From assembly GCA_030737835.1 (NCBI GenBank), contig CM060853.1:17108895-17172894 (forward strand): 64,000 nt of DNA, written 5' to 3'. The position numbers were made by a program, and so were the translations under genes. Of this stretch, positions 2,971-63,913 are shown piece by piece (the stretch's first letter is position 1; the number at the start of each line of letters is the position of its first letter). This stretch comes from Acorus gramineus. Its lineage: Eukaryota > Streptophyta > Magnoliopsida > Acorales > Acoraceae. Under the pieces are notes generated by a model, which was given only the letters and a program-made list of their open reading frames with translations, was not told the origin of the DNA and ran no database searches.

Positions 2971-4101
2971 ATGGAACAAGTAGGAGATATGGGTTTGCCG
3001 CCAGGTTTTCGATTCCACCCGACCGACGAAGAGCTCATAACTCACTATCTATCGAAGAAGGTCGAGGACGGAGACTTTGAAACAAAGGCGATCGGAGAAG
3101 TCGATCTAAACAAATGCGAACCTTGGGACTTGCCATGTAAGTGCTATTGAAAATTCCCTTGTAAACCATATATTCTGTTCTTTCTCTCAAAGTTTGTTTT
3201 GGTGATCACTGATCAGGGAGAGCAAAAATGGGGAATAAAGAGTGGTACTTCTTCTGTCTGAGAGACAGGAAGTACCCAACAGGGTTGAGAACAAACAGGG
3301 CCACTCAAGCAGGGTATTGGAAGGCCACAGGGAAAGACAAGAAGATATACAGAGCAAAAGCTCTGGTTGGGATGAAGAAGACCCTCGTTTTCTACAGAGG
3401 GAGAGCACCCAAAGGAGAGAAGACCAACTGGGTCATGCATGAGTACAGGGTTGAAGGGAAGTACTCCCTCCACAACCTCCCCAAGACAGCCAAGGTTGGT
3501 CACACTTTCATCAACTCCTCTGTTTTTTTTTGTTCAATTAGAATTCGTCTAAAAGTCTTTGTTTTTCTTTCTTTCATGGCAGAACGAGTGGGCGATTTGC
3601 AGGGTGTTCCAGAAGAGCTCAGGAGATAAAAAAACACATCTTTCAGGGTTGATGAGGATGGGCTCCTTTGGAGACCAATTGGGTCCCTCTCTTTTGCCTC
3701 CATTGACGGATCCCTCCAAAGCCTCTGCATCTCACGTGACCAACTTCTCCAACGCAATGGAGAGCCAGAGAGGCCATGAACAGATGGCCTTCGATTCCTT
3801 CGGTTCCACTCCCAACTCCTTGTATGGTTTTCAGGAGGTCTCAGATGTGGGAGGCCTTCAATTCCAAGGTGGTCCTAATTATGCTAGAGACCAGGCGAGC
3901 TTGCGAGCCTTGCTCGAGAACCACGGGTTCGACATGAAACAGGGGTTTAAAACAGAAATGGAGATGGGGTTCAGCATTTCTCAGGAGACCGGTCTCACCA
4001 GTGACGTGAATCCGGAGATCTCTTCGGTCGTATCGAACCATCATCATGAGTTGGGGTTACAGATGCAGGACTGTCTTTGGAGCTACACAGATTTAGAGTG
4101 A
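2971..4101 (+). CDS. NAC-domain transcription factor, NAC100/NAC80/ORE1-like
   Basis: Three exons: 2971-3136, 3217-3494, 3583-4101, all GT-AG, giving 320 residues. NAC proteins bind CACG-core DNA in the nucleus as dimers. The NAC domain fills residues ~9-160 with subdomain A ([14 protein letters not shown]), the C block ([20 protein letters not shown]), the WKATGKDK motif and the E block ending [11 protein letters not shown]. The three-exon layout with introns after DLP-W and TAK is the usual one in the family. The C-terminal half matches the pattern of the Arabidopsis NAC100/NAC80 group ([19 protein letters not shown]) and ends LWSYTDLE. This subgroup acts in senescence and organ-boundary growth and is normally limited by miR164; here the target site at 3731-3751 is altered. 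Family call is firm; the exact orthologue is not. Confidence 0.95.
3731..3751 (+). promoter_or_regulatory. Degenerate miR164 target site in NAC exon 3
   Basis: Aligned to the complement of miR164 (recalled from the Arabidopsis sequence), the 21 bases pair at miRNA positions 1-8, 11-12 and 14-19, and mismatch at 9, 10, 13, 20 and 21. Mismatches at 13, 20 and 21 are also seen in functional targets of this subgroup; those at 9 and 10 lie beside the slicing bond. The two central changes turn the usual Cys codon of the VxCFSN peptide into Asn (HVTNFSN), so the position is homologous to the normal site. Confidence 0.7.
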
Positions 4102-4671
4102 ATTAGTTGGGTTTTTTTTTTTTTTTTTTGGTACAAATTGATGGTGTTTGTGTGTTTGTGTGTGTAGATACTATACTAGATAGATATTCTGGATTTTCCA
4201 AAATAAAATTTGTATAAACACGGATTCTTGGTTTCTTGGTGAGATCAGGTTTATCATTGGTTCATGTGAAGGTCCTGTTTGTTAAGATGAGATGTGATCA
4301 GCATCTAATAATGCTTTACCTACCAACCTATCAAAAGAAGAAGAGAATAAAAGAGAGAAAGAGATGTGTGGGTCCTTCAAGATTCAATTAACATCCAATT
4401 CAGAGTGGCTAGCAATAATTGTTTTGGCTTTATGTTTAAGGTGATGATGAGGGTTCAATGATATGACTCTTGTGAAACTCTGTTGCACTTGTAACACATC
4501 TCGTCATCTCTCATTCTCCATGAACTGTTAGGCTACCCATTGAAAATGCGTGTCTTTTGCCTTTTCTCTATGAGGTTGGAGAACTGTGGTTCTCTAATTT
4601 CTCATATACTTCACTTTCCTGAGAGTCCTTGTTTCTATACTGCAAACACGGCTTTAGATCCTGATACATAA

Positions 4672-5265
4672 AGATATTGTTCATTTTGATTCTCCGTGCT
4701 TTCATGATTTTCAAAACACATATAAATCTATAAGAGCAATACTCACATATAAATACAAATGACACGCAACCGTGAGATGATATAATAGTAAACCGGAGTG
4801 CAATCCTCTGTGACATGCAACAAGGAAAGATATTGCCTATTTTGACTCTCAGTGCTTTCATGATTTTCAAAACACATATGGGGCTATAAGAGCCATATTC
4901 ATATATAAATACAAACTATACACAACCGCGAGATGTATAGTAATAAAGTGAAGTGCGATCCTTTGTGACAAACAACAGGGAAAGATATTGTCTATTTTTG
5001 ACTCTCAGTACTTTCATGATTTTCAAAACACACATGGGTCTATAAGAGTCATACTCATATATAAATATAAATGATACGCAACCGCGAGATGATGTAGTAG
5101 TTAACCGAAGTGCGATTCTCTGTGGCATGCTCTCGGTGCTTTCACGATTTTGAAACACACATGGGTCTCTAAGAGTCATACTCACATATAAACACAAACG
5201 ATACGTAACCGCAAGATGATGTAATAGTAAACAGGAGTGCGATCTTTTGTTGCATGCAACTAGGA
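4672..5265. repeat. Tandem repeat, ~150-bp unit, about four copies
   Basis: Four diverged units start near 4672, 4828, 4983 and 5131. Each carries the words CTTTCATGATTTTCAAAACACA, ATATAAATACAAA and AACCG(C/T)GAGATGAT and ends near GTGACATGCAACAAGGAAA or its variants; the fourth unit is shorter at its left end. Short open frames on the minus strand here merely read through the repeat and show the same peptide twice, so I do not call them genes. Confidence 0.8.
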
Positions 5266-5640: not shown

Positions 5641-7720
5641 ACATATTGTTCATTTTTAAGCAAGTTCAAGGCTTCAAATGTGTCCTGGAGTGTAAAATTA
5701 TGGTCACATTTACGTCTACCCTATCCAACATTGCTAGATAACTGAGGCAACCCTATTCATATCCACATTTGGACGAATTTCAGGTTTGCAAAACAGAAAA
5801 AATCCAATCACATATCCAAACTCAATCCTCGCTTTTTTAGTGTAAAAAAACCCAACAATCTTATTAAAATAAAACTTTTTATAAATGTGAGATTTTAAAA
5901 ATCTCAACATTTTAATTGTGCATCCAAATAAACTCTAAAACATGGTGAAAATTCTTTGCTTCAATTCACCTCTAAACATGCATGGGTTTATTGGGATCTT
6001 GGTTTGCCCATCCCATTCAAAAGGCCACACATGACAAATGGATTTTACACAGAAAAAGCATGGGAAGAAGCAACAGCAACATGTGTTTTTTGTGGATTTG
6101 TTTCTAGTGTGGGTATGGAAGGAATGGATTGATCATGATATGCTCACCTGATCAATGTTGTTTTTGTTACTTGCCCTTCATACCCATCTTTGGTGGCCTA
6201 AATTTGTATAACAAGATGGTTGGCTTTACCAGATCTCACAGAGAGGGAAAGTAGGCTAACAAGGTCGTCATGCATGACTCAAACTCAACAGAAATTTTTG
6301 GTTTATCCATTCATCAGAGGATTTGAATTTGTGATGGCTACTCAATTTTAGTTCCCAAATTATATTTTTACAGATAATGTATGCAGTTACACAACAATAA
6401 TAGTATGTTTATATATAATATACATGTTATACTTTAAAAGAAAAATAAATTTTATATTTTGCTAGTTATAGGTTTGGCGTAAAATATTACAGTCTACTTT
6501 GCAGTCCTACCCGGAGTACTCAATGGGACGCATATAACAGTAGTGCTTTAAAAATTTTGTTCTACTATTTCCATTCTTCTCGATCACTTTACTTTATTAT
6601 AACCAAAAAATTCCTACTGATGTCTATAATCAACATATGGAAAAATATTAATATCATGTTTTAAAATGATAAAAAAATTAAAAGAAAAAAATTGATGATT
6701 ATGTCCTGATTGTTTTTGGAGATTAAGTTGAGGACTCTTTGATGCTTGCACGTAAAGACTACTTCCAAAATTGAGACAGGGACAATCTTCTAATTTTTAT
6801 TATTTCTTAGTTCATCCACTGATATGTTTTTTTTTATATTAAATGTACCACATACCCTAGCTCTTTTTAATGAGTTTTCTCTATCAAACAAACAAAAACT
6901 TTAATCTCAAAGTAACCAAATTTTGGTCATAATCCGAGTTTGCAATAGACCAACATAGTGCTTCATTCACAATTGACAAATAAGGCTAAACATATTCAAA
7001 TGTTAAACTTTGATAGACATCATATGACAGAATGAAACCTACTATATCAAACAACATATAGTTTCAATCATTACTTCAGAGTTTATTGTTAGTCTTTGAT
7101 TTTTGTGCATTAAAAGGTGTTAAATCGTATATTAGGAAAAAAAAATGATAAAAGGAAGTTTTTTTATAAAAAAAATCAATTTTGTAAATAATGTATTTTC
7201 ATAATTTGGAATAGATGGAACATGATAATAGTTAGAAAGAAAAAAAAAATAGTTTCAAAGGCTATCATTCTTGTAGCTAGTAATTTTTGTTATTTGGATG
7301 TTCCTAAATTATATATATATATATAAAGAGTATATAATCAAATAAATTGAATACAAACATTTTCATATTTTGTTGTATATACAATCAGTGTAGTCTTATA
7401 TTTCCTTATATTGAATCAAACTGCATGAATAGTAGATGTGGACAGATGTAGTTATAATACCAATCCAACCCAACCCCCAACCCAACCCAATAGGTGGAAG
7501 ACAAAGGAAGGAAAATACCAAAGGTGTAATTCATCCCCTCTTTTGACCGTGTTTGTTTGGGAGCCAACTAGATTAGAAGAAGAAATAGAACAAGCCAATT
7601 CTGTTGCTATCCAAGATTTCTAGAATTATTGGGCATAATTGATGTGATAAAAGCATTGCCACGTGGACATTTTACAACATCCAATGCTGAGCTTTCCCAC
7701 GCTAGTCGAGAGACCTCAAT
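5641..7720. other. AT-rich intergenic DNA
   Basis: No gene, RNA or recognisable transposon end was seen here. It holds homopolymer runs and a short (AT)n tract near 7310. The open frame at 7438-7623 has no recognisable domain and no splice context. Confidence 0.6.
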
Positions 7721-20752: not shown

Positions 20753-21630
20753 CTAGCCCTTCACTGGCCTGACCACCAAACCACCCTCCGGCCTCTTCTC
20801 AATTGAGTAAGGCAAGTGACTCCCAAGAATTATGTCCCAAAACACAAAGAAAGGCTGAGAGAAGTTGTGTTTACCCCCAAAACGCTGGTGGTGCACGTCG
20901 TGGTACGCCGCATTGTTCGCGAAGAACATGTGGAAGGGGTTCCCAGGGAGCCACAGCCCGCAGTGGTCGTTGATCCCCTTCATTGTGGAGAACGAAAAGA
21001 ACACGATCGAGGCTCTGGGCGACATCCCCGATACCAAGAACGATAGGGCTCCGCCGATGGTGTCCAGGAGAAGCCCCTCCAGTGGGTGGTTATACTGGCT
21101 CCCATACGCATAAGGCACGACTAGGCGGTGGTGCCACGAGTGGATGTGCTTGTACAAAAACCTGTTGAGGTGCATGTACCTGTGGAGGAAGTATTGCCAC
21201 GCATCAAACACAAACATCGCTACGAAGAATTGCCTCGCCAGGGCGAACCAAGGCCAAGGCCAAGGCCATGATTCGGCTGTAGAATTGATCGCAACTTCGC
21301 CCTCCGTGACCTACACTTGATATGTAACCAAACTTATTGTTATTGTGGGTGTGATTGATTGATTGATTGTAAATTGTGATCTTAATATACCTTGAACATG
21401 AGGAATGCAACTATAGCTTGGAGTGTTTGTTGGAGGAGGACGCCTTTGATGACATCTCTCTTGGAGACCAAGTTCTTGAGGTCTTCTTCTTTCTTCGAAT
21501 GGAGGCGATATTCTTCGAATATCAAACCGAGGGCCATGTATACGCCGGAGTAAAGCCAATAGACCAGAATCGGCACGAACGTCGCTAGGAACTCATCGGA
21601 CGTGAAGTAGGTCATGTTTGGGGTAGTCAT
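20753..21630 (-). CDS. Sphingoid-base C4-hydroxylase (SBH)
   Basis: A di-iron ER membrane enzyme of the fatty-acid hydroxylase superfamily that adds the C4 hydroxyl to dihydrosphingosine, making phytosphingosine for plant ceramides. Exon 1 21630-21391 (80 codons, MTTPNMTYF...AFLMFK), then exon 2 from 21316 to 20753. Three histidine boxes are present: HRYMH, HSWHH and HDVHH, with the conserved NHPLEGLLLDTIGGALSFL and DHCGLWLPGNPFH blocks; the order matches Arabidopsis SBH1/SBH2. Length 267 residues, against about 260 usual. The nearest acceptor (TAG, exon starting 21311) gives the wrong frame; an AG five bases upstream keeps the frame open (K-CRSRRGEVAIN). Start chosen at 21630; a second ATG at 21615 also fits the family length. 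Confidence 0.9.
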
Positions 21631-44100: not shown

Positions 44101-47100
44101 TACACTATGACAGAGTTGGCAAGGATGGGCTCTTCAGCCATAAAGAGATTACTGTGTTGTTTATTCCAGACTTGTCCGCCTGTCTTCCTTCTGTGGATGA
44201 ATGGCAAAAGCAATGGATTGCTTACAAGAAGAACTTAACTGAAAAGGAAAGGCGACTGGCCTCGAAAAAGGAGGTTCGATGCTGGTTAATTGCAGTGTAT
44301 ATATTTTTATTATTAAATGAACTAGTGATTCACTTCATTTTTTGTCTTTTTTCTAGAAGTCCAGTGTGAAAGAAGAGGTTACTCAAGGTATGGCTGGTAA
44401 AATTGAAAAAACAGCATAATCAAATCAGTGATTGGGATTATGTTGATTTTTTCTTTGTTTGATTAGAAAATTCTTTGGATCATAGTTTTAACTTTTAAGT
44501 CTCATATATGTAGGGAAACCAAGCCCTCCAAAGTCTGAGAAATATGTTGGTTCTGCAAAAGACATCAAAGTTGAAGACCTTCAAGGAAATAATGAGAAAG
44601 ATAAAAAGGAAGGGCTTGATAATATGGACTGTGAAGTGGCAACTGATATTAGTAAAGACAGGTTGATTAGGGGTGACCAGAATGAGTCCTTAAAAAGTGT
44701 GGCTGAGCAGAATGAGGAAGAAACTTCAGCATCTTGTAAAGAAGAAGAAATGAAGGGTAACAAAATGAGTGGGGGTAATAACAGAAATGAGAAAACAGAT
44801 TCATCTGAAATAAAGGTGGTCCAAAAAACAGGTAAGAAGAGAGTGGTTAAGAAGACAATGAAGGGAAAGGTTGCAGTCAAGAAAGTAACTTCAGGGAACA
44901 CAAGTAAATGTCAAGAGAAACTGGAGGAGCTGGATACTGTGAATAAGCAAAACATATCAGAAGCCATTGAGCAACAAAATGTTACTTCTGCTAGTTCAGG
45001 TGCTGTGAAAACATTTGTGAGGAAGAAAACTGTGAAGAGGGTGCCTGCTGGAAAGATGATTCAGAAGGACGAGACAACCAGCAATGATGGTGCACAAAAT
45101 GAAAAGAAACCAAAGGAGGAAGCTGAAAGTCAAGAGGGTGAGCTGAAGCGCAAAAATGAACCAGGGAAAGAAACTGGTACAAGAAAAATTGTGAAGAGGA
45201 AGATTGTCAGAAGAGTTCCCAAAAAGAAGGTTATTGAGGGTGAAGACAAGAGTGTGAGTGAAAGCAACCAGGATAAGATGGTAGAGGAAAATTTTGTTAC
45301 ACAGCATGCAAAAGAAGTGGAAGATGCAAAGATACAAATAAAAAATGTTGAGCAGCACCCAATCGGGGTAAGTAAATTTGAAAGTAAGGTTGGTGTTAAT
45401 GATGTTGGAAAGGAATTGGAGGATGGTCATGATGAGATAATAGGAGGCAGATCAGTTGAGGAGGATATAAAGGGAAGAGAGAGTGATTCCAAGAGTAACA
45501 AGGATAAGGAAGTTAGGAAGCAGAAGGAATCAAACAATCATGATCAAGATGGGAAGAAAGGCGACTCAAAAGATGATAAAGAAAAGAAAACCAAGTATGA
45601 CTCTGACCGAAGTTTGAGCAAAGAAGTCAGGAAGAAAGAAAAGTCAGAAGAGCCTCCCCAACATCCTGGTTTTTTTCTCCGAACAAAATGGAGCAAGGAA
45701 TCTAAAGTAAGTTGATTCTTATGTTCTCGTGCTGAAATTCTTAATGCAATATTATCATGTTTCTGTGTTGAATGCTTAATGCAAACTTATCAAGTGAAAT
45801 AATTTTATTGAGGAACTTCATTTGTAGATGCGGTTGATGACACTATCATTGGATGGGCTCCTGGATTACAATGACAAAGATATTGCGGAATCCACATTCG
45901 AGGTTTGCATTCTCATTCCCTTAATTACTCCTTTGTAAGACAAGAGTTCATAGATTGTTTTGTCTGGTCATTATTGTTCTTCCCATTTATTTCTGTTTGA
46001 ATGCAGTGTCATGGTGAAAGAGGATAAGCGCTATATGTATTGCTTTGACTTGTTCTATTATCACACACTGCTGGTTCTCTGCCATTTTCACTGACATTTT
46101 TATACATCCTGATTGCGAACATGTGCAAGGAACTTGTTTGATGATCTCATCTATTTTAATTTTGGACGGTCAATGTTTTTATATTGTTGTTGATCTATTT
46201 TAAATTATACACCTGAACATTGTCAACTAACTTGTTTTGGTCTCAGGAACACTCATCACATGATGGGAGAAAAATATTTTTTTTTACACAAAAAGTAGAT
46301 TAATTTGGGAACTTCCTTCTCAAAATATGTTAAGGCATTCTTGCTAAAGAGGATTTTTTTTGGTGAATATGGGTGCTGTTGAGAGAATTTAATTTTAGCG
46401 ACACTCCCTCTTCAATTTTATATATTATTTTATCAAAAGTGTTTCACATGCCTTTCCTTTTAGAAAAAGGGATTCATATGTGGTCTTTTATCCTGTGCTA
46501 TTTGGTCATAGTTTGTAGCTTAAATGGGAATGCTAATCTAGTCTCTTTATTTTAATGTTTTGCATATTTTGATGTTCTTCTTATTGGTCATCTGCTTCCT
46601 GCAGCTTTCTTTATGTGCTGAATCACTTTATGAAATGCTCCAATACCAAATGGGTTGTCGCCTCCTTTCTTTTCTTGAGGTAATTTGGAGAAAAATGTTA
46701 TGCTGTCATATCATTCGTACTATCTTATATGAACTAGCTTATACTAATGGTATATGCTATCTCTATACAGAAATTGTACATTAGATGTGTTATAAAGAGG
46801 AACAAACGCAAAAGAGAAAGCAATGAAAACCCGGATAAGGACAAAGAAAAGTCCTCACAAAAGAGGCCAAAGATAGTTGAGGAGCCTCCTCAAAATAATG
46901 ATACTGATGAACTAAAAACCATGAAATCTGAAATCCCAGATTCTGGAAAGACATTGGCTAAAGATGATGGTTCTGTAGCTGAGCAAGTTGAATCCAAGAA
47001 AGAGACAGATGATGAGCCTGAGAAAGAAACTGAGGAGCCTGAGGAAGAAGCTGAGGAGCCTGAAGAAGAACCTGAGGAAGAAATTGAGGAAACTGAGGAA

Positions 47101-49222
47101 GAAATTGAAGAACCTGAGGAGGAAATTGAAGAACCTGAGGAAGAAACTGAGGAGCCTGAGGAAGATGTGGATGAGCCAAAAGAAAACATCAAGGATGATG
47201 TAGAAATGAATGATGCAGTTCATGAGGTAATTTTGTTATAATCAGTTGTTGGATTCTGGAATTTGTATCCTTCACTGATGCCTATTACAGTCTTGCATTG
47301 TCTATGCCTATAATTTGTTGGATTTCTCCCTTGCATTGCTTATATGATTATAATTCTTTCCTTCCCCTTTCCTACATACCCGGGGTTTATAGAATTAGAA
47401 ATGATCACATTGTCCTGGTTCAACATTGGTGTGTTAATGAGATGGTCGACATATTATGGAAATTGCAGGATCCTGTAGTTTTTATATGTTTCTATATTTA
47501 TCTTACAACCCATCTATAATGTATGTTATCCATAAAGCACACTTTTGTAGATTGTACAAAGATTATGGTTCCCAGCTTTATAAGTTAAATAAAACGAAGA
47601 AAAACATTAAAAAATGAGGAAAACAAGAAATACCAAAAGTGATTATGATATCATACTCGTGATTCAGATCATAAAAAATGCAAAGCACAATTTATTCAGA
47701 CAATCCAATCAATTTTTCAAATTGTGTGCAGCCATTTTTCCTGGTGTGTGTATTACCATCAAAGTGCTAGTTATAGGTTGATTATGTATAATATTTTGGG
47801 TGCTGAATCTGGAAGTTTCTGGAGTTGGTGTCCCCTCTTTAAGATGTACTATAAGCGTCTTCCTGACAGAATCCATGTGTATTTAACGATGATTATCACA
47901 AAAAGGCTGATGTGAGGTTCGGGAACTGTCAGTAAAATTTATTGTTTAGATGTCTGTCTTTGTAGAGTGTTATTTATGAAGTAAATCTTTTAAGATAAAT
48001 GCCCCTTGGACCTGTAATATTTCTCGATGCTGTTTGCTCTATGCTGGGCAATAGTTGGGAAGGAACAATAGGATTTCATTGGCATATCCAGTAATCCAGA
48101 ATGGGTATGAAGATAAACACTGGAGCCCGTGAACACGGTTTTTAAGGAATCTCAAGCATTTCAACTGGTACATTTGCCCCAAAAAAACGTATACCTATTA
48201 TGCAACACCTTTTTTTTTCTTCCTTTCTAATTCCAAAGGTTCGGTTTTGGTCACCCCCCCTCCTGTTCTCCATGAGATTATATAAAAATTTCAGTTGGTG
48301 AGCTCTACTTTTCACTTTAGTTGATTTTGATGAAACTGGTCATTGCTTTATTCTATATCCATACATGCTTAATCATAGTATTGTTATCTGTGTGCTAGTT
48401 GATAAGGTCAATTCATAACTCTATTATCATGAAGTTCCTTTTACCATGGAATATTGGAATATTACTCTATTATCTTGAAGGTCCTTTTACCATGGAATAT
48501 TGGAAAACTACTCTGTTATGGGAAAAGGGTACTTTCTCTGAAGTTGAGGTGTTCAACATAAATGTCACTGGTTCAATATACCCCAATGATGAAAATATTT
48601 TACACTTGTAGCAGACAGAAAACTTGGCTGAGGCATCTAGTGTAGACACCAAACGTGAGGAAGAGGACACTGATGCCAATGAAGAAAAGAAATCACTACC
48701 TGCTGATCATGAGAAGTCAATAGAAAAAAGTGAAAAGAAGGATGTAAAAGATGAGACTGACAAGAAGCTGGATGCTGCAAGAGAACAAGTTGTTGACAAG
48801 GAATTGTTGCAGGTGTGTTACTGTTTAAATTCATTGGATGAGTAATGTCTATTCGGTTGAGTACATCAATGTCACATAGAAAAAAAGATTGTTCTGTTGT
48901 CATGTGTTGATTTGGTTATTAAACAGGCATTCAGGTTCTTTGACCGCAATCGGGTGGGGTACATCAAGGTTGAAGATATGAGGCTGATTCTTCATAACCT
49001 GGGAAGGTTTCTTTCGCACAGGGATGTCAAGGTGACCTTTCCTTTACATTTCATCTGCTTTTCCTCAGTAAGGTTGTTTCTACCGGATACTGAGTATAAT
49101 TTCGTGTTTTCTATTATTCTTTTTGAAATCAGGAAATGGTTACCTTTGCCCTTTTAGAAAGCAATACCCAAAGGGATAATCGCATATTTTACAAGAAATT
49201 AGTGAGGCTATCCGATATTTGA
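35535..49222 (+). CDS. CCAR1-like nuclear protein, RSA1/EMB1579 type
   Basis: Twenty-one coding exons, total 4413 bases, 1470 residues (Arabidopsis RSA1/EMB1579 is somewhat shorter). Ends in order: 35535-35606, 35709-35894, 37459-37782, 37983-38009, 38090-38154, 38431-39183, 39290-39335, 40075-40167, 40242-40297, 40966-41080, 43534-43748, 43861-43924, 44100-44273, 44357-44387, 44514-45706, 45828-45902, 46605-46679, 46771-47226, 48615-48812, 48927-49031, 49133-49222. N-terminus is Gly/Ser/Tyr/Gln-rich; then an Arg-Glu array (~361-410), GRTPPL repeats, a conserved core (REYICKVHPFCLVDAERDYL; WNRLLEIHYDR) matching the CCAR1/DBC1 region including the inactive Nudix-like fold, lysine-rich repeats (VKRKIVRRVPKKKV), an acidic EEPEEE tract and a C-terminal degenerate EF-hand (DRNRVGYIKVED). 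Known role in the family: nuclear, phase-separating, needed for embryogenesis and salt response. Exon 4 is only 27 bases. Confidence 0.93.
38838..38965 (+). repeat. Arg-Glu codon repeat in exon 6
   Basis: A run of CGnGA(A/G) codons encoding alternating Arg and Glu (RERERERERVERERERERER...), a charge-patterned segment typical of RNA-processing condensate proteins. Open frames on the opposite strand (RSRSRS or FPFPFP) are by-products of this periodicity. Confidence 0.85.
39023..39094 (+). repeat. 18-bp minisatellite, four copies, coding GRTPPL
   Basis: Four in-frame units CTTGG(A/T)CG(A/G)ACTCCACCG at 39023, 39041, 39059 and 39077; units 2 and 3 are identical. They encode LGRTPP repeats with possible proline-directed phosphorylation sites (TPP). 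Confidence 0.95.
41099..41151. repeat. (AT)n microsatellite at the start of intron 10
   Basis: About 25 AT units starting some 20 bases after the exon-10 donor at 41081. Confidence 0.95.
42049..42575. repeat. Direct repeat flanking a GC-rich insert in intron 10
   Basis: 42049-42105 and 42509-42567 share ACATGCTTACATTT..CA..CTTG(T)G..ATTTTTTTACCTA. Between them lies a GC-rich palindromic patch (42178-42250: GTGCGGACCGCATGTGCGG and CATGCGGCCGCA words) followed by a C-rich stretch. The patch resembles the subterminal repeats of hAT elements and has a CATAGTTCAAAAAT edge near 42162, but no second end was found. Intron 10 (41081-43533) otherwise holds nothing gene-like. Confidence 0.5.
46985..47170 (+). 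repeat. Acidic codon repeat in exon 18
   Basis: Repeated GAGGAACCTGAGGAAGAA-like units encode EEPEEE(A/P/I/T) runs. The strands and frames opposite show SSGSS and LRFF-type frames, which are periodic shadows. Confidence 0.9.
48418..48520. repeat. 46-bp tandem repeat in the intron before exon 19
   Basis: Two full units start at 48418 and 48464 (ACTCTATTATC(A/T)TGAAG..TTCCTTTTACCATGGAATATTGGA as two adjoining words) and a partial third starts near 48510. Confidence 0.85.
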
Positions 49223-61300: not shown

Positions 61301-63913
61301 GAATACACCAGTTGGGTCAATTGTTCGGAGAGCTTTAATTGTTGAAACATATTGGTGCAATATGTCATTGGTTGATGCTCCAGCGGTGAGCAAACGGTAT
61401 CGTAAAGCGGAAATAAATGAATCAACGAGTTTTGAATGTTGCCCAGTATATTCAAGACATTGTTTCAGATCTTCGATTGCCGGAGAACTGGATAATGTTG
61501 TAACAATCAACTACATTATCTCACTAAATTATAGAAAAAAAAAAATACACTTCCAATATTGGGCAATACATGACAGGAAATTGAACCATTTTTCACTTTT
61601 TTCAATCACAATAGATACAAATGCAGTACGTAACCTGTGTTTAACCCACTCCGTAATGATTATACTATCATCATTGGCAAACTACACAAATGCATGAATT
61701 GAGAATAAGATGGTGAAATCGTATCCTTGGACATGTGATAAACTAATTTTGCATTTGCTCATGCTCTCCTCGTTGGGTATCTTAATAACTGTTTTCTAAT
61801 TTATCTATTTTACTATTCCTAATATATTACTCTAATAAAACAAGGCCATACCATTCAATTTCTGGTGTAACATAAAAATGGGCATACCTAGTTGATGTAC
61901 TTTATAATTGTAAATTATGAAGCCATGATCCCCCATAATGGTCTTATTAAGTGGGAGTGACCCAGACAGTATGTATACATATAGTATTAAGCCAGCTCAA
62001 CAACCGTGTCTAAGAGTTCAAGACAATAACAGTTATTCATATTAATTAAAAAAAAAAAAAGATCTGTGTCAACCTAAGCATATCCGTTAGAGTGACATCA
62101 GAATCCACAAAAAAATTGAACAAATATGCTGTATCACCACCAGAAAATTTAACATGTAAAAGTTACAGTTAACAAGAATTGACTTGTTTTCCATCAAAAA
62201 AAAGAAAAAAGAATTGACACGCTGAGATATTTTTGCCACCATCATAAAAACACAAGGTGCCCCAAAGGGAAGTGAGCAAGAGACCAATTGAACAGTTGAA
62301 AAGCAACACAAAACTCCCATGCACCTGTACAATGAGTATCTCAGAAGACTGCCATGAAGGAGACTGGAGTTACAGTATGTACCTTTCAGGATAATCCACT
62401 ATAATGTCAAAAAGTTTGCCTATCCTCAAGTCCTGCAAGGTTTCGTATGCAAAATACTCAAGACGTAACTTCCATCTGACGAGTCCTTCAGAATGAACAT
62501 CAATCCCAGTGTAACACGAGGGATGTGAAGCCAAAGGAGACTTAATACTCATCGGCACACTATTATACTCAACAGAGTCACCGAGATAAGCTATAAGTGC
62601 ATGTAAGAGATGGAGAGGAACAGCCTGCATAGAAGTGCAGAAAACCATTTAAGCAATGCCAAGGAAGAGTGATGATTAAGTTTATAGAAAGCAAATGAAC
62701 ATAAAATGTTAATCAAAATTCCACACCATGTAAGCAAGCTTCTCATTTCTCACCTAAACCCCATGATGAAGACACATGTTGGATATGCATGTCAAAAAAA
62801 CTAAAAATAAGCCAAATTGTGTTTCTAAGCAAACGAATATGTTTCATTCAAAAAAAGCAAACAACTATTTTGATTTTTGTCTTTATAACTATTCTAAGAT
62901 TTATGCTGACAACACATAAAGTTAAATGAAGTTGATAATTACACACTACTATAGTCATATTAATTTTTTAATTTAAGGATGCATAATCACTTTTAGAAAA
63001 AAATAATTATAATAAAATATTTTATTTATTTATTTATTGTTGTCACTGTTGCGTCCACATACTAGTTTTTCTAGATTTTGCATATCATCGAGTTTGCACC
63101 ATGTTATGTCTGTGTCCCGTGTCCATACTTCATAGCCTGACTAAAATGACACAACTAGTCTAAGGCAAAGATAATTTAAACACACATCAGAATAGGGGGG
63201 TGGCATAGATCAATATCATCACCAATTTCCAAATCATTATACGTGAATAAGTACATTATGATAAGCCCACCAGTTTAGATCTACCATCTTGCAACAAGGT
63301 CAACAAGATACAAACAAAATTTCCCATTGCTTAGCCAGTAGTACACTTTGAAAACATATATTTGGCTACCATTAACAACATACACAAATCAAAGATGTGC
63401 TTAAACAATACCTGAATCCACTGTTTAATTGATTCCAGAACAGGACTCCTGTAATCATCACTGGCCAATTCACAAACTTTGTTCTGCTATCAAACAAAAA
63501 AAAAAACACATTCATATTTGAAGAAGAATTAAATAATGAAAAATACTATTGCAAAAAGAGGCTAATCAATCTGACAGCAGATTTCCAGGAAACACCCCCC
63601 AAAAGAATAACATCATTAATCACCTTCAGGAGCAGAAATATAGCAGAAGCATAGGCATCTTCAGTCATGGATGTAAATCCAAGGCTTCTGAGATCTCGAA
63701 CAACATCGCCAATGTTTTGCACCAATTTGTTGTTCTTTAAGATATTTGTACCTTGATAGTTTCCATCAATATCCATTTCAAAACTTGAAGAGAGCTTGTT
63801 TCCGTTTAAGTCATTCTTGACATTGAATTGAACATCCCACCCATCTCCATATTCAGAAGCCATAGTCATGCTTAATTCTTCCAATTTTCCCTTAAAATAT
63901 AATCGCGGGATTT
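55346..63913 (-). CDS. APC2: Anaphase-promoting complex subunit 2 (partial, 5' part off the edge)
   Basis: APC2 is the cullin-like scaffold of the nuclear APC/C ubiquitin ligase; its C-terminal half binds the RING subunit APC11. Thirteen exons are visible, high to low: 63913-63624, 63486-63412, 62624-62383, 61487-61071, 60971-60770, 60658-60544, 60413-60331, 58288-58169, 57965-57877, 57559-57478, 56676-56485, 55646-55578, 55468-55346, encoding 698 residues to the stop. About 170 N-terminal residues lie past the right edge. Key segments: LVRWKLRLEYFAYETLQDLRI, the cullin core SPAIEDLKQCLEYTGQH and VNEYRVMLAEKLLNKSDYDID, SNFWPPIQ, KTPRKLLWKKNLGTVKLELQ, and the final winged-helix ending GLYYLKK. 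Each block matches Arabidopsis APC2 as I recall it. All junctions are GT-AG and in frame. Single-copy and essential in known plants. Confidence 0.95.
59046..59093 (+). repeat. Poly-T/poly-G tract in an APC2 intron
   Basis: About 17 T residues (59049-59065) followed by a G-rich stretch at 59066-59093 with runs of 3, 8, 6 and 4 G. It lies in the 2-kb intron between the exons ending 60331 and starting 58288. The G-rich strand is opposite to the APC2 transcript. Confidence 0.85.

Follow-up and report, generated by a model that had tools for sequence, protein, structure and literature searches.

The NAC gene of the window and its duplicate

The window, by which we mean the whole 64-kb stretch of DNA analyzed here (beginning at C7:17108895, in a genome of 398.6 Mb that its genes mark as a plant's), carries a three-exon NAC gene with an altered target site for the microRNA miR164 in its last exon, and shares several stretches with the surroundings of a duplicate gene on C11:

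2382..2723 (no strand): upstream stretch common to the C11 duplicate, 66% by blastn
2971..3136 (plus strand): exon 1 of the NAC gene, translated, with the start codon at 2971 and a GT donor at 3137
3217..3494 (plus strand): exon 2 of the NAC gene, in-frame open from 3219
3583..4101 (plus strand): exon 3 of the NAC gene, which encodes the C-terminal region and holds the altered miR164 site, aligned to the C11 duplicate, with the stop TGA at 4099-4101
3731..3751 (plus strand): miR164 target site in degenerate form, CTCACGTGACCAACTTCTCCA, with miRNA positions 9, 10, 13, 20 and 21 left unpaired
3742..3743 (plus strand): AA where the C11 duplicate has TG, the two bases of the site at which the copies differ, in codon 202 of the codon alignment
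4268..4402 (no strand): downstream non-coding stretch common to the C11 duplicate, 75%, colinear by blastn

The three exons are separated by GT-AG introns and join into an intact open reading frame of 963 nt that encodes a protein of 320 residues, of which 10-134 match the Pfam NAM domain (PF02365, E 3.1e-50). Immediately 3′ of the gene lies a tandem array (4670-5257), the first part of which (a 156-bp unit in 2.9 copies, 4670-5124) continues into a second part built of a 127-bp unit (2.0 copies, 5002-5257).

The initial annotation placed the gene in the NAC subgroup that miR164 targets and labeled it NAC100-type. Of the solved NACs, four different sequences match the protein, and by far the best of them is the NAC domain of ANAC092, also known as ORE1 (7xlj; 298.6 bits vs 185.7 bits for ANAC019). 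A genome search with exon 2 returned 63 matches, the best 30 of which were made into loci, and a NAC-domain tree of 16 short rows (15 of these 30 NAC rows plus ANAC092) unites the window gene, its C11 duplicate and ANAC092 in one group with a support of 82/75. Two further loci, L034 and L035, adjoin this group (78/93); the latter also has ANAC092 as its top solved match (272.5 bits), though it falls outside the group itself. Within the group, the C11 copy and ANAC092 are closer to each other, with the window gene outside (89/88), which counts against a simple late duplication; in a tree of all 30 rows without ANAC092, the window gene pairs with the C11 copy with a support of only 0.537. ANAC092, ANAC079 and ANAC100 are all given as miR164 targets in PMC2908682, as are ORE1-type NACs, including the grape VviNAC33, in PMC8251598, which ties the Arabidopsis and grape ORE1-type relatives to leaf senescence or de-greening. 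Both the solved match and the tree thus bear out membership in the miR164-targeted subgroup, and given the grouping with ANAC092 and the common listing of the three Arabidopsis genes, the label NAC100-type appears acceptable, with the proviso that ANAC092 was the member compared. The window gene is like these known targets in its top solved match and in having a C11 duplicate that retains the site, and differs from them in that its own site is broken at positions 9-10.

The genome search yielded one close duplicate of the window gene, on C11. The two coding sequences differ by a dN of 0.107 and a dS of 0.511 over 296 aligned codons (a second method gives a dS of 0.444); the C11 coding sequence in this alignment runs one base past the stop, which leaves the alignment unaffected. 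The intact reading frame and the resulting pairwise dN/dS of 0.21, a ratio that is blind to recent change confined to one branch, lead us to reject a reading of the window gene as a pseudogene. When 20 kb of C11 was compared with the window by blastn, the coding region and the flanks on both sides match in the same order and orientation, with further colinear matches beyond the two stretches given above at 1681-1765, 6043-6106, 6253-6307 and 6620-6841; out-of-order matches are also present, many of which are repeats at 49.6-51.8 kb. Over the 20 kb of C11 compared, the pair fits a segmental or whole-genome duplication, and we consider the latter its likely origin. The stretch at 6620-6841 is non-coding and 77% identical to a region 3′ of the C11 duplicate, in order, and could possibly be a conserved regulatory element.

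The altered site and its pairing with miR164

Plant AGO1 cuts its targets opposite miRNA positions 10-11 and requires central pairing for this. A lack of 5′ RACE ends is by itself weak evidence, as in an orchid a site was reportedly present and yet no cleavage product was recovered (PMC9777940). The 21 bases at 3731-3751 read in frame S-H-V-T-N-F-S, and the bond 3741/3742 lies opposite miRNA positions 11 and 10. The initial annotation had described a still recognizable miR164 target in which two adjacent changes opposite positions 9 and 10 replace the usual Cys by Asn and leave the seed pairing intact, and each element of this description holds. At the homologous place (C11:10360214-10360234, CTCACGTGACCTGCTTCTCCA), the C11 duplicate matches this 21-mer at all but two bases and encodes HVTCFS where the window gene encodes HVTNFS; such a near-identical 21-mer at a homologous place argues that the window site is no chance match. 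Alignment and pairing agree that the AA at 3742-3743, where C11 has TG, lies opposite miRNA positions 10 and 9, with AAC (Asn) replacing TGC (Cys), and miRNA positions 1-8 pair with the window site. Positions 13, 20 and 21 are likewise unpaired in the C11 duplicate and are therefore not part of the window change; the feature that distinguishes the window copy from the C11 copy is the mismatch pair at 9 and 10. Whereas functional targets combine an in-frame H/Q-V-x-C-F-S motif with continuous central pairing, the window site has N in place of C and is unpaired at 9 and 10. The remaining six codons of the site are free of synonymous change relative to C11 (P 0.075-0.151, not significant), which is compatible with a site still under constraint or with a recent loss.

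In the mRNA of the window gene, taken as the three exons joined with assumed ends, 3731-3751 is the best miR164-like place with 5 mismatches; a second miR164 site in this mRNA was considered and rejected, as the next-best places carry 9. When pairing was computed at every start on both strands of the 64-kb window, 6 of 127,960 starts reached −23.9 kcal/mol or lower, three of them at the altered site and three at 61749-61751. The latter belong to the sole other region of the window that pairs as well (61749-61771, plus strand, −25.2 kcal/mol), the pairing pattern of which is quite different and which is probably due to chance.

The pairing scores of the five NAC-type sites found in the genome were computed with its commonest miR164, and the energy ratio is relative to a perfect duplex:

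Window site: penalty 8.0, −23.9 kcal/mol, ratio 0.54
C11 site (L012): penalty 4.0, −32.6 kcal/mol, ratio 0.74
L016 site: penalty 4.0, ratio 0.76
L014 site: penalty 2.0, ratio 0.87
L018 site: penalty 2.0, ratio 0.93

The duplex of the window site is weaker than those of all four other NAC sites. The C11 site is itself borderline with its penalty of 4, as is the L016 site, and miR164 regulation of the C11 copy is what its sequence would predict. All four other sites code for Cys at the altered codon, from which Cys appears to be ancestral and Asn derived; this direction of change also leans in part on the motif with Cys at that codon, which we take to be the usual form of miR164 sites. The window gene has, in the C11 copy, a paralog in the same genome that retains the site. 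The scan for sites at minus-strand NAC loci covered six of them directly and the others via genome patterns only.

MIR164 genes of the genome

Two genome patterns were used for MIR164 and NAC sites: CACGTNNCNNNNTTCTCCA, which occurs at 11 places (vs 10 for the reversed control), and CACGTNNCCTGYTTCTCCA with one mismatch, which occurs at 12 (vs 8 for the control); a MIR164 with other letters could have escaped both. Together with folding, these patterns point to seven MIR164 hairpins (L004, L005, L006, L007, L009, L010 and L017), with the mature miR164 reading TGGAGAAGCAGGGCACGTGCA in five and ending in CGTGCT and CATGCT in one each. Four further loci (L003, L011, L013 and L015) were set aside as neither MIR164 nor NAC sites and look like chance matches. 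Two of the hairpins, L009 (C8:6128402) and L010 (C8:6164269), are near-identical and lie ~36 kb from each other, as if a MIR164 gene had recently been duplicated locally.

No MIR164 match is obtained at Rfam gathering scores for any of the seven hairpin loci; under an E-value threshold, each of them matches RF00647, with top scores of 32.3-43.7 bits that fall below the cutoff of 64. Five of the seven also or only match this family weakly on the strand that carries the mature sequence (27-40 bits), and L007 and L017 do so on the opposite strand only. As the hairpins are near-palindromic, the name MIR164 rests on the exact mature sequence and the fold. The seven loci pair 17-20 of the 21 mature positions at −0.37 to −0.62 kcal/mol per base. 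The pairing count, being the best of many fold windows, is a blunt measure (12-18 of 21 at non-MIR164 places vs 17-20 at MIR164), and since even the antisense of the C11 site reaches 18 of 21 by the same measure, folding alone separates the MIR164 loci poorly; what tells them apart is the energy per base together with which mature sequence they hold.

Against the window site, the miR164 of every one of the seven hairpins fails to pair at positions 9, 10, 13, 20 and 21, and that of L017 also at position 17. The altered site itself, with up to three mismatches, occurs at 8 places in the genome (vs 9 for the reversed control), comprising the two NAC genes and six others. In none of these six is a strong fold combined with good pairing of the 21-mer: they pair 12-17 of 21 positions at −0.17 to −0.34 kcal/mol per base. 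Hence, a miR164 variant of this genome that would pair with the two altered bases, named in the initial annotation as an observation that would speak against its claim, is absent among the seven hairpins and the places within three mismatches of the site, and the genome patterns and folding likewise turned up no new microRNA that would compensate for the change. Small RNAs of the type TGGAGAAGTTGGTCACGTG, if abundant, would contradict escape. Two places that partly resemble the altered site, L026 (C66:1911484) and L013 (C69:1060865), are alike in having a short palindrome and a CACCCT repeat and look like members of a repeat family.

Probable escape from miR164 and the competing readings

Of the two intact ORE1/ANAC092-type duplicates, the C11 copy keeps its site, and we consider it highly probable that the window copy escapes slicing by miR164. 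With AA standing where the Cys codon of the C11 copy has TG, the predicted pairing to miRNA positions 9 and 10, in the slicing center, is lost, and, as we picture it, miR164-loaded AGO1 would cease to slice the window mRNA. Little other repression would be expected from a site with central mismatches in coding sequence, and the control of the pair would be split into a miR164-dependent C11 copy and a miR164-independent window copy. The block to slicing foreseen in the initial annotation is the outcome that the sequence leads one to expect; we infer that slicing is also lost in the plant, where effects on dosage or senescence-type functions might follow.

The closest known case is the dominant Arabidopsis mutant cuc1-1D, in which a G-to-A change replaces Cys by Tyr in the miR164 site of CUC1 and renders the mRNA miR164-resistant, and which is reverted by a miR164b changed C-to-T (PMC5608315). 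Read in frame, the mutation hits the base of the codon that is also one of the two changes in the window gene, opposite miRNA position 9 (C in miR164); that paper gives nucleotide 9/21. Since the single change of cuc1-1D already confers resistance and the window gene, on this frame reading, has that change plus its neighbor, escape is to be expected. Unlike the miR164-resistant point mutants of CUC1 and CUC2 (cuc1-1D and cuc2-1D), we are dealing here with a natural two-base difference, in an ORE1-type gene, that yields Asn and not Tyr. Two silent central changes have likewise been reported to make BCBP resistant to miR398 (PMC4005643). For the protein, rice offers an analogy: point mutations in the site are described as leaving DNA binding and yeast transactivation unaffected, and deletion of the site as abolishing or strongly impairing transactivation (PMC3991743). 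As those point mutations were without effect in yeast, the Cys-to-Asn change may be tolerated as well.

Several other readings of the same site were weighed against escape. Continued repression of the window gene by miR164, through residual slicing or through translational inhibition of the uncut mRNA, would draw on the full pairing of miRNA positions 1-8 and on the report that mimic-like sites in 3′ UTRs cut protein output in cis (PMC2908682); the window site sits in coding sequence, however, non-cleavable sites with central mismatches acted only from 5′ UTRs in vitro (work cited in PMC4005643), and a single change, as in cuc1-1D, is already sufficient for resistance (PMC5608315), for which reasons we regard such repression as improbable. 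It is highly unlikely, in our estimate, that the AA stems from a rare allele, or from a mistake in sequencing or assembly, with the site retained in the usual gene: the data come from one assembly, the two differences are adjacent and no second haplotype copy of the window gene was found (the genome matches lie on C7 and C11 only), but the reading frame is unbroken, and around the site the two copies differ in a way that resembles ordinary divergence.

The initial annotation had offered escape and mild decoy activity side by side; escape stands as the best reading, and the decoy half finds weak support at best, given a site that lacks a bulge, has four mismatches outside the center and forms a weaker duplex. 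A decoy of the mismatch type would bind miR164-AGO1 uncut, leaving less of it for the C11 copy and the other NAC targets. Synthetic decoys that carry two mismatches at positions 10-11 are able to sequester miRNAs, though less well than bulged ones (PMC3121747), and the window site has the mismatch or bulge at miRNA bases 10-11 that this paper calls for (A-A at position 10), pairs at positions 1-8 and is one of only two regions on either strand of the window to reach −23.9 kcal/mol. Against these points, the same paper permits three mismatches outside 10-11, which the four of the window site (9, 13, 20 and 21) narrowly exceed; the pairing is ungapped, with a 2x2 internal loop in place of the 3-5 nt mid-site bulge required by PMC3441763, although the other limits of that paper are respected; and for miR172, one central mismatch lacking a bulge did not make a working decoy (PMC2908682). 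Moreover, the energy ratio is only 0.54, and the amount of mRNA would have to rival that of miR164. The site resembles IPS1-type target mimics in having its pairing broken at the slicing center and differs from them in lacking a target bulge, in lying in a coding mRNA and in its further mismatches. We accordingly find a decoy role very hard to credit, and less credible still is the stronger proposal of a window copy that has been conserved and selected as a slicing-proof miR164 binder, one that both escapes and mildly titrates miR164 from its duplicate and other NACs; if titration were true, the two copies would be linked via their shared microRNA.

As an escape from miR164 by one of two duplicates, the event is ordinary in kind, as one-sided miRNA sites are common among plant duplicates: in poplar, 459 of 1,023 transcription-factor pairs derived from whole-genome duplication are reported to have only one copy targeted by miRNAs (PMC8195341), and miRNA targeting is described as having widely diverged among Arabidopsis and Brassica duplicates (PMC5322543). 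What sets the present pair, of likely whole-genome duplication origin, apart from this general pattern is that the exact lesion is visible. In tomato, a review describes three ORE1 copies and all of them as regulated by miR164 (PMC8157701), so that copies of the ORE1 clade do not as a rule lose the site. In the literature searched, the coverage of which is incomplete, no natural ORE1-type copy with such a lesion came to our notice, and six 19-letter site strings occur in none of its papers, which says little on prior publication. Copies that differ in miR164 control would provide a natural test of the role of the microRNA for ORE1-type regulators, and as the remaining 21-mer is unchanged between them, the window gene and its C11 duplicate would constitute a minimal comparison of an unsliceable and a sliceable site.

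Elsewhere in the window, the sole match above an Rfam gathering cutoff is a U6 snRNA-like sequence on the minus strand at 530-635 (60.3 bits, cutoff 44), which could be a gene or a pseudogene. An open frame on the minus strand at 20756-21310 has a histidine-rich HRYMH...HSWHH pattern, which we take to be reminiscent of fatty-acid or sphingoid-base hydroxylases, and 21 bp tandem repeats at 47010-47165 lie inside another open frame (46738-47238), in which the unit would encode a glutamate/proline-rich stretch.
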